NCBI RefSeq assembly: GCF_023195755.1
Contig: NZ_CP096203.1
Span: 3,720,001-3,784,000, forward strand
Length of the DNA: 64,000 nt
Direction: 5' to 3'
Source of the DNA: Chryseobacterium nepalense
GTDB taxonomy: Bacteria > Bacteroidota > Bacteroidia > Flavobacteriales > Weeksellaceae
Below, in pieces: positions 14,262-20,066 of the stretch. The notes under the pieces were generated by a model. The model searched no databases, was not told the origin of the DNA, and was given only the letters and a program-made list of their open reading frames with translations. The position numbers were made by a program, and so were the translations under genes. The number at the start of each line of letters is the position of its first letter. Position 1 is the stretch's first letter.

Positions 14262-14457
14262 GTTTGGGTAAGGTTGGGAACACGCATTGCAAATCCGCGC
14301 GATCTGCGTCTATGTATTGTATCGTTGAGATTTACAGAGATTGGACCCCTTCGGAGTCCCGCTGTTTCGTACTGTTATTTTTCTACACAGCTGCTGTTCC
14401 TACGGAAGTTGTATACTACTTTTATTGATGCCGGATTAATGGATCATACAGGTATGA

Positions 14458-14604
14458 AAATATAATTTACAGTTGCAAAAATATTGTTTACAGGAGCAGG
14501 AATATAAATTGCAGGCTGAAGAATATTATTTACAGGCAAAAGAATATATATTGCAGTTGTGATATTATGGTTTGCAGACGCAAAAATATAATTTGCAGGC
14601 GGCA
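14458..14604 (+). repeat. Seven diverged copies of a 21-bp tandem repeat in exact phase
   Basis: The word TTTRCAG/ATTGCAG recurs at 14466, 14487, 14508, 14529, 14550, 14571 and 14592, each exactly 21 bases apart, while the rest of each unit (pattern GAATATAATTTGCAGGCGCAA) varies. Insertions and deletions are absent although the substitutions are many. Read in one plus frame the units give a heptad such as EYKLQAE with one TGA inside; on the minus strand a frame stays open across all units (pattern PVNNILQ). Confidence 0.75.
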
Positions 14605-14609
14605 GAATA

Positions 14610-14642
14610 TAAAAATATCCTGACCGAATATTCGATCAGGAT
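14610..14642 (-). terminator. Probable terminator of the 261-aa gene
   Basis: ATCCTGA (14617-14623) pairs with TCAGGAT (14636-14642); on the minus strand the stem is followed by a T-rich stretch. Confidence 0.6.
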
Positions 14643-14707: not shown

Positions 14708-15493
14708 TTACTGATTCGAAACGACAGTAAATTTAATACCTGAAACCGTCAGATATTCCGGGGAAGTGCCACCGTAAAGGCTCTTCATATATTTTTTAAC
14801 ATTCAGGGCAATCGAGTAGAGGCCGGTTCCTTCCGTATACAATATTTTATCTCTTTCTATCAGTTTAAGATTCAGCTCCGCCTCGGTCTGGTCTACTGCC
14901 TGTGTTGCGCTTACCAGCTCGCTTTTATAAGTGTTGAGGCTGGTTAATTTTAATTCATCTTCCTGGGGGGCATACGCTGAAATGGTTGTTAAGAGCTGCA
15001 ATAGCACCCCGAAATTATCGGCCCTTTGGGTGAAAGACTGCCTGGAGGAAGAAATAGTTTTTGGGGCTTCTTTTCCTGTTTCGGTTGTTTTGACAGATTT
15101 CTTTGTGGTTCCCTGGATAGAACGGTTCAATGATTTTGCCTGGTCTATGGTCCCTTGTGGTAATCCGAGGATTTCCAGTCGGTTCACAATGCGGGTACAG
15201 GTTGCTTTCAGGTTCTCAAAAGCCTCCTGACGTAAGGCGATGGCATTTTTGTTGGCATTCCGCTTATCTTCCACTTCGCTTATTTTGGCTGTTGCCGTAT
15301 TGTACAGTGCCTGAAGGCTGGCTACGGTAAGCTCAGGAACCGGCGGATTGTACAAACTGTACACGGAAACCTGCTGGATGAGCTTTTGGAGGTTGGCGAC
15401 ATTTCGGGCATGGCCGACTTCGCTCGCGGTTTTTGGATTGTTTTTCTCGGGTTCAGGATTGCCCTGCAATTCGGGATTTGTTTCCATATGCAT
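14708..15493 (-). CDS. Hypothetical protein with an internal duplication, lineage-specific
   Basis: A 261-aa soluble protein I do not assign to a named family. It lacks signal peptide and membrane segments. The N-terminal 30 residues are Pro/Asn/Glu-rich and probably disordered. Two halves look related: residues around 58-110 (SLQALYNTATAKISEVEDKR and the following helix) and residues around 180-240 (SLNTYKSELVSATQAVDQTE and the following helix) both read as a helix, a turn, a second long helix with N/K/L/E content, ending in similar RLEILGL/KKYMKSLYG segments. A Lys/Thr/Ser-rich linker joins them. This helical-hairpin pair could be a small coiled-coil or phage-tail-like structural protein. 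It borders the 21-bp repeat region. Confidence 0.65.
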   Translation of the reverse strand: MHMETNPELQGNPEPEKNNPKTASEVGHARNVANLQKLIQQVSVYSLYNPPVPELTVASLQALYNTATAKISEVEDKRNANKNAIALRQEAFENLKATCTRIVNRLEILGLPQGTIDQAKSLNRSIQGTTKKSVKTTETGKEAPKTISSSRQSFTQRADNFGVLLQLLTTISAYAPQEDELKLTSLNTYKSELVSATQAVDQTEAELNLKLIERDKILYTEGTGLYSIALNVKKYMKSLYGGTSPEYLTVSGIKFTVVSNQ

Positions 15494-15600
15494 TTGTGTT
15501 TTTAAGTTAGTGGAACAAATATAAAATTTATTTTAAAGGGAAGAAATTTTGGAGGGAAGTATTTGGGTGTTATTATTTTATGTTAAGTGAAGGGTATGTA

Positions 15601-15630
15601 AAAACCCTGGCTGATGAGCGAGGGTTTTTA
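15601..15630 (-). terminator. Probable terminator of the SIR2-STAND gene
   Basis: AAAAACCCT pairs with AGGGTTTTT across a 12-nt loop, 31 bases beyond the stop of the minus-strand gene. Confidence 0.7.
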
Positions 15631-15660
15631 AGAAGTGATTGGAAAATCTACGTTATCAGA

Positions 15661-18600
15661 TTATTGGGCAGCTATAAATTTTTCCCATTTTTGAGTATTA
15701 GTTTCTACAAAACTTTTTAAATTATCCAAACCAAAATACGAATAAGAAAAATTGTAATTACTGTCTAAATTATTATCTAAATTTTCAAATAGATGATTTA
15801 TATATTGGTATTTGTAAAATTTAGAAAGTGATAGGCCTTCCTGTACGATATCTTCATAATCTTTTGAGTCGATTTCTTTTAAAAATTTTGCATAGAAAAA
15901 TATAGCTTCTAAATAGTAATATTTAATATGTTTTAAATTTGATATTGCTTCTTTAAAATATGTTATTTTGCTAATTGTCTCTTCAGTATTAAAGGCGAAC
16001 ATCAGATTTTTAAGTCCTTTTGTATAGGGATTTGTTATGACAAGTTTTTTTATTTCTTTAAGTGTTAACTTTTCAACTTTTGATAAAGTATATGTGCATT
16101 GCATTATCTCAAGGTGCTCTTCCATATAAAGATCACTAATGTGTTTTTTCAATTCATCTACATTTAGACTTCTGCTTCGTAATAAATATTCAAAGTAATA
16201 GAATGAGTTAATATTCTTAATATATTTTATATTATCTATTCCTAAGTAATGATAGTCACTATACAGATTTTTATCGTAGTTATCATTCTTAATAAACATT
16301 TTAAGATATTCTATTGTATTTCCCTCCATTGAATGTACTTGTGAAATTAAATTTTTCCATTTAAGTTCACTTTTATTTTCATTACTCATATTTCTATTTT
16401 TCATCTCATCAGTTGATAGTAATTTTTTCATCTCAATATATGAATTATCAAATTCAACATGATAATACAATTCTCGTAAAATTATTGTTTTTATCAGATT
16501 TTCAGCATCTTCAATTTCAGAAAAGTATTCAATAATTGATTCTAGTTTATTGTTGAAGTAAAGTACATTTTTGGTACTTGTTAAAAAGTCTTCAAGTTCA
16601 TATATGTATTCTAAAATTGAATTTTTAATACCTAATAAATCATTACCTGTTATAGAATAAATATATTCTAAAACCTGTAATAAATTATTTTTAACTTTTA
16701 AGCTTAATTTTAAGCTAAATGAGTCACTTTTTTTCCGTGAGTAAAAATGTAGAGTTTTTAAAATAAAACGATTATATAGATATGCATCAATACAATATTT
16801 CTGCTTATTATCTTTATGTTTGTTAAACTGAAAGTCAGCAAATCTTCTGATTATAGGCTGTAATTGTAATATTCCATTGTAATTTTCTAAAAGAGATTTA
16901 TTTTCTAATTGTTTTATTTCCGTATCGGTGATATTATTTGACGATTTTCTTTTTTGAAAACATTTTTTAAAATCTGGTAAATTAATCCCATCTGGAAAAA
17001 GACTTAATAACTCAAAAGCTAATTTCTGTCTTGAGTTCAATGATGTATAAGAATAATTAATAGATTGAAAAATTGATTTTGTTCTCTCAATATTTAAATC
17101 GGCAGTATTTTTAAAGACGTCTGAATACTCTTCATTTAGAGTTTCAAAGAAATGATCTCGGATTTGATCCCTTAGTTGACTAATCTTCATTGTTGGACGA
17201 GATGTTGTAACTAATTTAATTGCTAATGGATTGTTAGCTAGTAAATCCTCTAAAATATCTGTCCTGAGAATCTTTATATCTTCAGAAGAGTAATTTTTAT
17301 TACCATAGTTTGCCATAAATAGTTTTAACGCATCATCTGTTGTCATTGGTGTTAAAGTAAAAACTTCCTCAAACTCTTTATTGCTTATAATATCTCTTGA
17401 TGTGATAACTATATTGGAATAATCTGAAGTAAATTCCAAAAGTTCGATAACTTTTAAATATTCCTCATTATCTAAATTATTTACAACGGTCTCAAAATTA
17501 TCTAATATTAAAAGTGAATCTATTTTTTCTGAGCTATAATTTTCAATTAAATATTCTCTGAAATTTAATATATCTTTTAGATTAAAGCCTTCAATAACTA
17601 TTTCCTCAAAATCATCAAATGACTTTATAGTTTCACAAGATTTAAAATTTACACCATTTTTATAGTAACCCCTATTGTATAATTCGTATGATATTTTTTT
17701 AACTAGTGTTGTTTTACCCAAACCACCTGAGGCTTTAATATTTAAAATTTTGTTTGATGAGTTTAAAAATAAAAACCTTGATATTAAATTACTTTGTTCT
17801 TCAATTCTCCCAATAACATCAGTAAGACATTTCTTACCAATATCTAAATTACGATTATTGCCGTAAAAATTATTTTTGAACGTTTTTCCCTTTTCTAATT
17901 CAACTTTCCATTCAACATCATTACTCTTAATATTTGTATCTGTAAATGAATTTTTTTTTTCTGTTATAATTTTATGTAAAAATTTTTTAATTGTTTGATT
18001 CTTGTATTCAAAAATATTTATAATAGGATGAGTTATATGCTTAATTTCTACTTGTTCATTTGTTAGTAACAGAATAGGTATACTTGGATTAGTTATATTA
18101 TCTACAATATCATCAAGAGAGATTAAAATATTTTTAAGATTTTTGTCTTCGATATAGATATTGTTTTTGTAGACATTTGATATTATTATGAGTAAATCGT
18201 AATCTTCAATTAAGTTTAATGTATTTAGATTTAGATACCCGATTAGAATTTCCGCGTTTATGTTTTCAAATAGAGAAATTGTATTTCTATATTCATCAGC
18301 ATAATTTTGATCAATAATATCTGGATAAAGTATGACTATTTTTTTTACTTTATGTTCAATTTTAATCTGCTGGCTTAAATTAATTTGTGTTGGAATAATA
18401 TCTTTTTTGAAACTGATTAATTCATCGATTTTAGTTTCTAATTTTGAATAATCTTCTATTTCAATTATATTAAGGAAATCATATTTTTCAAAGGCCTTGG
18501 CATCGGGAGTTATTATAAAGTGTTTATTATTACCGCCAAAGGTCTTATTCATTTTATCAAATATTAAATTAATATCCGGATCGCTAAAGCTAAAACCTAT

Positions 18601-19167
18601 AAATAAAAATGTCGAATTTGTAAATAAACTTTTTAATTTTTCCGGAGCGGCTTCATTATTATCAGAAGAATATAGTTTTTCATAGTCCTCCTTAAAAACT
18701 ATACAATTATCAGGTTCATCAAAACTTCCGTGTAATTTAAAAATAAAGCCATTACTATTTTTATTAATATTATTTATAGTGTATTTAGATGTTGGTTTTG
18801 ATGGAATTATTTCATTATTTGCTGCTAGCTCAAAAGCATTGTCATAATTAGTTGTAATAACTTTATTATTGCTTAATTTTAGAAGCTTTTCATGTAGTTG
18901 AAGATTACAATCTTTTCTAATTTTAAAATTAGAACCGATATAATTGTATATCTCATTTTCATCTGTTTTTAAATATTCCAACACATCTAATGCTGACATT
19001 GTATTATTATTTAATAGATCTATAAATGGATTTAAATGTGGTTTATTAATATTTTTAATATTTTGAATAACCATATTATTCCAATTAGGCAGGTTCAAGG
19101 ATTTAGACAAGCCAGATCCTGCAAAAACAATAATATTATTCTCTTCCAGTTCTTTTTGAATATTCAT
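15661..19167 (-). CDS. SIR2-domain STAND NTPase, probable antiphage defence protein (Avs-like)
   Basis: A 1168-aa cytoplasmic multidomain protein. Residues 1-255 form a SIR2-type NADase domain: GSGLS loop (FAGSGLS, 15-21), TTNYDNAFE (105-113), KLHGSFDEP with the catalytic-type His146, and GFSFSDPD (191-198). Residues about 275-402 form an alternating alpha/beta domain I cannot name. Residues about 450-700 are a STAND/NB-ARC NTPase: Walker A GGLGKTTL (481-488), Walker B SLLILDNFE (551-559), TSRD (589-592), NNPLAI (645-650). The remaining 400 residues are helical, TPR-like, and probably sense a phage trigger. In characterised SIR2-STAND systems, oligomerisation on sensing leads to NAD depletion. 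It is visibly richer in A+T than neighbours, has its own terminator and no defence partners, consistent with horizontal gain. Confidence 0.85.
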   Translation of the reverse strand: MNIQKELEENNIIVFAGSGLSKSLNLPNWNNMVIQNIKNINKPHLNPFIDLLNNNTMSALDVLEYLKTDENEIYNYIGSNFKIRKDCNLQLHEKLLKLSNNKVITTNYDNAFELAANNEIIPSKPTSKYTINNINKNSNGFIFKLHGSFDEPDNCIVFKEDYEKLYSSDNNEAAPEKLKSLFTNSTFLFIGFSFSDPDINLIFDKMNKTFGGNNKHFIITPDAKAFEKYDFLNIIEIEDYSKLETKIDELISFKKDIIPTQINLSQQIKIEHKVKKIVILYPDIIDQNYADEYRNTISLFENINAEILIGYLNLNTLNLIEDYDLLIIISNVYKNNIYIEDKNLKNILISLDDIVDNITNPSIPILLLTNEQVEIKHITHPIINIFEYKNQTIKKFLHKIITEKKNSFTDTNIKSNDVEWKVELEKGKTFKNNFYGNNRNLDIGKKCLTDVIGRIEEQSNLISRFLFLNSSNKILNIKASGGLGKTTLVKKISYELYNRGYYKNGVNFKSCETIKSFDDFEEIVIEGFNLKDILNFREYLIENYSSEKIDSLLILDNFETVVNNLDNEEYLKVIELLEFTSDYSNIVITSRDIISNKEFEEVFTLTPMTTDDALKLFMANYGNKNYSSEDIKILRTDILEDLLANNPLAIKLVTTSRPTMKISQLRDQIRDHFFETLNEEYSDVFKNTADLNIERTKSIFQSINYSYTSLNSRQKLAFELLSLFPDGINLPDFKKCFQKRKSSNNITDTEIKQLENKSLLENYNGILQLQPIIRRFADFQFNKHKDNKQKYCIDAYLYNRFILKTLHFYSRKKSDSFSLKLSLKVKNNLLQVLEYIYSITGNDLLGIKNSILEYIYELEDFLTSTKNVLYFNNKLESIIEYFSEIEDAENLIKTIILRELYYHVEFDNSYIEMKKLLSTDEMKNRNMSNENKSELKWKNLISQVHSMEGNTIEYLKMFIKNDNYDKNLYSDYHYLGIDNIKYIKNINSFYYFEYLLRSRSLNVDELKKHISDLYMEEHLEIMQCTYTLSKVEKLTLKEIKKLVITNPYTKGLKNLMFAFNTEETISKITYFKEAISNLKHIKYYYLEAIFFYAKFLKEIDSKDYEDIVQEGLSLSKFYKYQYINHLFENLDNNLDSNYNFSYSYFGLDNLKSFVETNTQKWEKFIAAQ

Positions 19168-19631
19168 AGTTTTATTAATTTGTCGAATATATTAATAATT
19201 TACATCAAATTCATAAAAACAATTAAAAACCGTAATGTTTGGATAAAAAAAATCCTTTGTTTTTAGCAATGACAGAACGCGTAAAAATTGATTTGACTTT
19301 TGAGGTCGTTCATTCATGTGATTTTTTGCTCGTATGTATGCTATTTCATAAAGCTTTAGGCTAAAAACAAATTGAGATCCAATTCATTAATAGGAAGTTT
19401 GGATGTTTTTTCGTATCTTTGTATGATAATAAAAGGAAACAACCTTTCTCTGTAACAGTTTAGATTTCTATTTTCAATCGGTTTTTTTTGCTTTTACAGC
19501 TGACAGATTTTAATACTATTTCATTTTAAGCACTTATTTAAGGCATAATCAGAGATCTTATTCAAACTTTTTATTTCTTTTCCTGCAACGGAAAAATGTA
19601 TTCATGTAACAACTAAATTTTATAATAATAT
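19168..19631. other. Intergenic region with a truncated reading frame and the cold-shock gene leader
   Basis: The 464 bases hold the promoter of the SIR2-STAND gene, a short frame at 19269-19364 whose first residues (MTERVKIDLTFEV) resemble the start of START-like proteins but which then loses similarity, and the -7 box plus long leader of the cold-shock gene. Confidence 0.5.
19414..19421 (+). promoter_or_regulatory. -7 box of the cold-shock-domain gene
   Basis: TATCTTTG matches TAnnTTTG. The implied transcript starts near 19428, leaving a 5' leader of about 200 nt, long for this genome and typical of cold-shock messages. Confidence 0.6.
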
Positions 19632-20066
19632 ATGGCGGATTCTTTTTCTAAAAAAGAAAATTTCAAAAAGAAAGTTCAAAAACAAAAGGAAAAAGCTCTG
19701 AAACGTGAAGAGCGTAAATCGAGCAACAACAAAGGTAAAAGTCTTGACGAGATGTTTATGTATGTAGACGCAAACGGTCAATTGACTTCAACTCCACCGG
19801 ATCAGGGGGAAAAAGCTGAGATCAACATTGATGACATCCAGTTGGGTGCAGCTCCTATTGAGGCGGAGGAACTCAGAAAAACAGGAATCGTTACTTTTTT
19901 AAGCGAAAAAGGATACGGTTTTATCACGGAAGACAAAACGAAGGAAAATATTTTCTTCCACAGTAACAACTGTGCAGAACCTGTGAAAAAAGGAAACAAA
20001 GTTTCTTACGAGAAAGAAAAATCACCGAAAGGATTTTCCGCAGCGGAAATTCAGCTGGTGAAATAA
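19632..20066 (+). CDS. Cold-shock-domain protein with basic N-terminal extension
   Basis: A 144-aa nucleic-acid-binding protein. Residues about 85-144 form the OB-fold cold-shock domain with the RNP-like motifs KTGIVTFLSEKGYGFITED and ENIFFHSNNC, and end in the strand GFSAAEIQLVK. Classical Csp proteins are near 70 aa; here a Lys/Arg-rich, coil-prone extension (FKKKVQKQKEKALKREERKS) and an acidic linker precede the domain, an arrangement recurring in Bacteroidetes. It is likely an RNA chaperone. Its long AT-rich leader and -7 box suggest control at the RNA level, as in other cold-shock genes. Confidence 0.88.
   Translation: MADSFSKKENFKKKVQKQKEKALKREERKSSNNKGKSLDEMFMYVDANGQLTSTPPDQGEKAEINIDDIQLGAAPIEAEELRKTGIVTFLSEKGYGFITEDKTKENIFFHSNNCAEPVKKGNKVSYEKEKSPKGFSAAEIQLVK

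Follow-up and report, generated by a model that had tools for sequence, protein, structure and literature searches.

A SIR2–NB-ARC protein of Chryseobacterium nepalense as a probable single-gene, NLR-like antiphage system

Introduction

The stretch of Chryseobacterium nepalense DNA analysed here, called the window below, covers 64,000 nucleotides (contig NZ_CP096203.1, positions 3,720,001 to 3,784,000) and contains, at 15661-19167, a gene that may form a defence system by itself. A sequence-only reading of the window had described this gene as a SIR2 NADase-like domain joined to a STAND NTPase and a long helical C-terminus, and had proposed that it is a self-contained antiphage sensor of the Avs type. 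This proposal was followed up by domain, structure, conservation and locus comparisons.

Domain architecture of the protein

No stop interrupts the 1168 codons of the open reading frame at 15661-19167 (minus strand), whose G+C content is about 24% against about 38% in the surroundings. In the translated protein, Pfam matched SIR2_2 (residues 102-229, E 2.1e-30) and NB-ARC (residues 460-678, E 5.1e-7), both above the curated cut-offs. The coordinates, the length and the union of a SIR2 NADase-like domain with a STAND NTPase were therefore described correctly, and the quoted motifs were located at F15-S21, T105-D109 and K144-G147 in the SIR2 part and at G481-T487 and L552-E559 in the ATPase. The long helical C-terminus was also recovered, in a model of residues 440-1168 with a mean pLDDT of 84. 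A separate folded domain at residues ~272-410, between SIR2 and the ATPase, had been missed. The features of the gene are as follows.

15661..19167, minus strand: gene for the SIR2 - putative caspase/CHAT-like domain - NB-ARC - helical sensor protein (1168-aa ORF, Pfam, relatives)
18403..19167, minus strand: SIR2 NADase-like effector domain, residues 1-255 (SIR2_2 match, ThsA structures)
18847..18849, minus strand: predicted catalytic Asn107 of TTNYD, invariant in 13 full-length proteins
18730..18732, minus strand: predicted catalytic His146 of KLHG, invariant in 13 full-length proteins
17938..18354, minus strand: middle alpha/beta domain, residues ~272-410, putatively caspase/CHAT-like, without a conserved His-Cys dyad (AlphaFold, Foldseek)
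17128..17820, minus strand: NB-ARC NTPase, residues ~450-680 (Walker A SGGLGKTT, Walker B LLILDNFE, TSR, NPLA)
17713..17715, minus strand: P-loop Lys485, invariant in 13 full-length proteins
17500..17502, minus strand: Walker B Asp556, invariant in 13 full-length proteins
16798..17127, minus strand: winged-helix-like region, residues ~681-790 (model and alignment, by analogy with NB-ARC proteins)
15664..16797, minus strand: C-terminal helical solenoid, predicted sensor, residues 791-1168 (helical model, 6mfv match)

SIR2 effector, NB-ARC switch and C-terminal solenoid

The SIR2 part matched the solved ThsA NADases at 2e-16, with E values of about 1e-16 to 1e-15 for 6lhx/8bto, and the solved KomC at 8e-14. 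Its GxGx(S/T), TTNYD and HG motifs are kept in the 13 full-length proteins of the family, and the catalytic Asn and His conserved in SIR2 defence effectors are present (N107 and H146 in 13/13), as are K485 and D556 of the ATPase; NADase activity is predicted. The equivalent of Asn107 in PaAvs5-1, Asn110, is required for defence (PMC12931631). A SIR2 domain close to that of the family was also found in front of TPR repeats, with no recognised ATPase, in proteins of the Chryseobacterium genus and other Bacteroidota (L032, L062 and L067, probably also L029-L031).

The window protein shows the hallmarks of an NB-ARC STAND ATPase: Walker A, Walker B, the TSR sensor, NPLA and a winged helix. Both Walker motifs, (S/T)R and NPLA are kept throughout the 13 full-length proteins. 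The sequence profile of the ATPase matched the NB-ARC of Roq1 (E 1.9e-6), and the best PDB match of the 440-1168 model was the STAND protein PH0952 (6mfv), whose sensor is of the TPR type. This alignment covers 717 columns of NB-ARC plus C-terminus and extends over the entire C-terminal half; the plant NLRs NRC1, Roq1 and NRC3 came next, and then CED-4, NLRC4 and Avs4. The fold matches to NB-ARC structures together with the Roq1 profile match identify the ATPase as a canonical NB-ARC (AP-ATPase). It differs from the usual pattern at one point, in the winged-helix-like region, where FPDGI is accompanied by LQ(P/S)IIxRFA in the position of the NLR MHD motif. MHD was absent from the 13 members and LQ(P/S) stood there in 13/13; since the MHD histidine is replaced in all members, the details of the nucleotide switch may differ from those of usual NB-ARC proteins.

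The mean pairwise identity among the 13 proteins was 51% for NB-ARC plus winged helix and 41% for SIR2. In the C-terminus it was about 30% over most of the length and 47% in a conserved core at residues 1001-1110. This pattern of residue conservation fits a working enzyme and switch combined with a faster-changing sensor. A profile of the C-terminal domain by itself had no usable match in the PDB.

The middle domain

AlphaFold modelling of residues 252-432 (mean pLDDT 85, pTM 0.80) gave an alpha/beta domain at ~272-410, for which the best Foldseek match in the PDB was caspase-6 (E 5e-4, probability 1.00); a SAVED-CHAT filament (E 3e-3, probability 1.00) appeared among other caspases. These matches ranged from E 5e-4 to about 8e-3 with TM values of 0.3-0.5, and flavodoxins were close behind. 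Pfam gave no match in the domain, comparisons by hhalign with CHAT, C14 and TIR alignments were not significant, and profile searches of the PDB with the domain alone gave no usable match. The link to CHAT is consequently based on the fold search and on the residue pattern YDxLIIxTK...K.YIEDxxLKS..S..EI..IP.D.IPxIFIT, which we take to follow the CHAT layout, and the assignment of the domain as caspase/CHAT-like is made with moderate confidence.

An active caspase/CHAT-like protease at this position would give the protein two effectors, as the caspases and SAVED-CHAT at the top of the fold search might suggest. This is very unlikely, however, given that nearly all members have other residues where His-Gly and Cys would be expected, that no conserved His or Cys was found in the alignment of the 13 full-length proteins, and that no other large region is as poorly conserved as this domain, with its mean pairwise identity of 29%. 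A profile of the domain, searched against 396 genomes of the phylum, met family members in only two, that of the window itself and one Flavobacterium, and its third match was weak and interrupted by several stops; the search thus turned up no relative whose dyad is intact. If the domain is caspase/CHAT-like, it appears, with moderate confidence, to be catalytically dead.

The middle domain is probably a non-catalytic spacer or a regulatory surface that would relay NB-ARC movement to SIR2. A more far-reaching possibility, which we put forward only tentatively, is that the family represents a distinct kind of bacterial NLR, in which a dead caspase/CHAT-like domain between SIR2 and a plant-like NB-ARC acts as a regulatory relay or as a decoy, offering a surface that could, for instance, bait phage proteins directed against CHAT or caspase effectors.

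Relatives and horizontal transfer

The family comprises 12 full-length relatives with 32-57% identity to the window protein, distributed over three phyla (Bacteroidota, Bacillota and Campylobacterota). The relatives were found in Flavobacterium, Nonlabens, Bacteroidales, Mucilaginibacter, Spirosoma, Chitinophagaceae and on a Hymenobacter plasmid, and further on a Peribacillus plasmid, in Paenibacillus and in a Campylobacteraceae genome. In the search of genome contigs, a single-protein query gave no match and a four-member alignment query found relatives. Among other genomes, 149 of the genus yielded no full-length SIR2-NB-ARC protein and 395 of the phylum yielded one (1/395).

In all hosts the gene is AT-rich, with 21-29% G+C against 26-55% in the flanks. 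In the tree, a Flavobacterium and a Spirosoma copy are close sisters although neither the family nor the order of their hosts is the same, and this placement points to the spread of the gene by horizontal transfer. The gene occurred in none of the phage records searched, and viral contigs gave matches to the SIR2 domain only. A broken copy, split over several frames, was observed on the Metabacillus plasmid pBY2G20 (L004:7989-11060).

The neighbouring ORFs of the 13 loci were compared, and no gene was positionally common beside the SIR2-NB-ARC gene. The few genes that the loci share lie at scattered positions, the nearest one scanned (L049/L054) encoding an alcohol dehydrogenase.

Insertion site and defence hotspot

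In the nearest relative found (G012), whose flanks are 95-97% identical, the gene is missing and the match to the window picks up again at 19226, and the left flank matches other members of the genus up to 15629-15640. These two ends bracket an insert of a single gene.

15641..19225, no strand assigned: approximate horizontally acquired insert with the SIR2-NB-ARC gene only (flank homology, empty site, low G+C)

The earlier statement that no partner gene adjoins the SIR2-NB-ARC gene agrees both with this boundary and with the comparison of the loci of relatives. The neighbouring gene for a 261-aa protein (14708-15493) was considered as a partner and rejected, being an ordinary gene of the genus beside pnp that occurs in relatives without the SIR2-NB-ARC gene. 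Between pnp and this gene, at 14447-14612 of the window, short repeat units of the type TTGCAGG...AAGAATAT and similar were noticed; they are also present in other members of the genus in variable copy number.

The slot between the 261-aa gene and a cold-shock gene (19632-20066) was filled variously or empty across the window (at 14708-20066) and the corresponding loci L129, L130, L184, L185, L186, L188 and L189. When the contents of the slot were examined with PADLOC in eight other members of the genus with filled slots, recognised or candidate defence genes were found in six. Two different Gabijas occupied the slots of G419 and G449 (GajA E 1.7e-222 and 1.9e-267), Drt3b that of G471 (E 1.2e-183), PDC-M62 pairs those of G444 and G467, and a methyltransferase with a PDC-M31-like set that of G438. 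The G438 slot (L130:2783-6629, plus strand) contains a cassette of three genes, for a type II methyltransferase, an ATPase whose N-terminus resembles a restriction enzyme, and a PDC-M31B-like protein.

The genes in the remaining two slots, G396 and G434, were not recognised by PADLOC. The G396 slot contains an overlapping pair on the minus strand (L185:231-2924 and L185:2917-4098) encoding proteins of 897 aa and 393 aa, the latter starting with an ATPase-like P-loop sequence; the pair, which matched no PADLOC model, is a candidate for an unknown defence system.

Unrelated defence systems swapping at one slot are the usual picture of a defence hotspot, and the use of this location as an argument for defence is guilt by association. 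It also bears on a different target for the protein. A SIR2-STAND protein directed against plasmids or other mobile DNA, or active in another stress or cell-death response, would fit the carriage of the family on plasmids, where it could act in inter-plasmid competition, and SIR2 NADases are also part of anti-plasmid systems such as the short Argonautes. We regard such a role as unlikely, because most alternative occupants of the slot, Gabija and DRT among them, are recognised antiphage systems, and because an NB-ARC joined to a solenoid suggests that the ligand is a protein. The antiphage reading of a self-contained gene, as first proposed, stands as probable in view of the invariant catalytic residues, the single-gene insertion without a partner, the hotspot, and the carriage on plasmids and across phyla.

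Proposed mode of action and significance

The protein is probably a self-contained NLR-like antiphage protein in which sensing of a phage product leads to NB-ARC oligomerisation and NAD hydrolysis by SIR2. The sequence of events proposed here follows what has been established for SIR2 effectors and for STAND proteins. Before infection, the NB-ARC would be kept closed by the helical, TPR-like sensor at the C-terminus. On infection, the sensor would recognise and bind a phage product, nucleotide exchange would allow the NB-ARC to oligomerise, and the movement would be passed by the middle domain to SIR2. The clustered N-terminal SIR2 domains would then switch on and hydrolyse NAD, and the loss of NAD would stop phage growth, with or without death of the cell.

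With such a system, SIR2-STAND immunity encoded by one gene would reach beyond nSTAND3 (Avs5) to ATPases of the canonical NB-ARC type, to which plant NLRs and APAF-1/CED-4 belong, here in Bacteroidota, Bacillota and Campylobacterota. The pseudo-enzyme-like middle domain raises the question of how NB-ARC movement reaches the SIR2 effector, and the slot that recurs across the genus, with the 261-aa gene on one side and the cold-shock gene on the other, offers a place to look for new systems.

Comparison with Avs5 and other known systems

Avs5 consists of SIR2, nSTAND3 and repeats (Muralidharan et al. 2026, PMC12931631), and PaAvs5, which protects against jumbo phages, depends on its SIR2 residues, on its P-loop and on its C-terminal repeats (PMC12931631). 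Phage-triggered NAD hydrolysis is a further characteristic of Avs5. Like PaAvs5-1/2/3, EcAvs5 and EfAvs5, the window protein combines SIR2, a STAND ATPase and helical repeats in a single gene, and it has the N-terminal SIR2 (PF13289) with GxGxS and TTNxD motifs by which Avs5 is recognised. The earlier label "Avs-type" is thus appropriate for the layout; it does not extend to the ATPase, which is NB-ARC instead of nSTAND3, to the PADLOC Avs models, or to the extra domain.

A true Avs5 (AVAST type 5) that has diverged beyond current models would have its effector, STAND ATPase and helical repeats arranged in this way, and the identity between clades of Avs5 is itself only 18-21% (PMC12931631). 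Weak nSTAND3 scores were obtained in 8 of 11 members (best 8.5e-6), with a model that also weakly matches every genome searched. Such an origin is nevertheless improbable: in the window protein NB-ARC passes its cut-off and nSTAND3 (PF20720) is absent from the Pfam matches at E<=1, and no PADLOC Avs model matched the window protein or 10 relatives (0/11), using a library that includes Avs4 and was run without a known-Avs5 control. The extra domain also shifts the P-loop to 479-487, compared with about 357-364 in Avs5.

Two further differences concern the motifs, as HG is invariant in the SIR2 of the window family while about half of the Avs5 homologs have NG (PMC12931631), and the nSTAND3 of PaAvs5-1 has an atypical Walker B (PMC12931631), where the window protein has canonical NB-ARC motifs. 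On domain models and the published description of Avs5, the family is set apart as a relative of Avs5 and not a proven member; the protein would be expected to work like Avs5 or an NLR, and Avs5 is the closest system in layout, although the protein is not filed there. In a separate search of loci from sampled genomes of the phylum, no SIR2-nSTAND3 protein was detected, and SIR2 genes of E. coli, Pantoea and other plasmids that were examined as possible Avs5 controls proved to encode short SIR2 proteins and not Avs5.

Among other defence systems, the SIR2 domains of ThsA (Thoeris), KomC, DSR1/2 and LmuA are clearly homologous to that of the window protein, but none of the matches reaches its NB-ARC or solenoid. 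ThsA is activated by a small molecule bound by its SLOG domain, and the sensors of KomC, DSR1/2 and LmuA also differ from that of the window protein. The proteins at L066 (Ruminococcus) and L068 (Lachnoclostridium) have SIR2 followed by NB-ARC and TPR, as in the window protein, but gave no match to the family's middle domain or to its conserved C-terminus. Conversely, PH0952 (6mfv), Roq1, NRC and CED-4 share NB-ARC, winged helix and a C-terminal solenoid with the window protein but lack SIR2; in plant NLRs the repeats are leucine-rich and the effectors are of the TIR or CC type.
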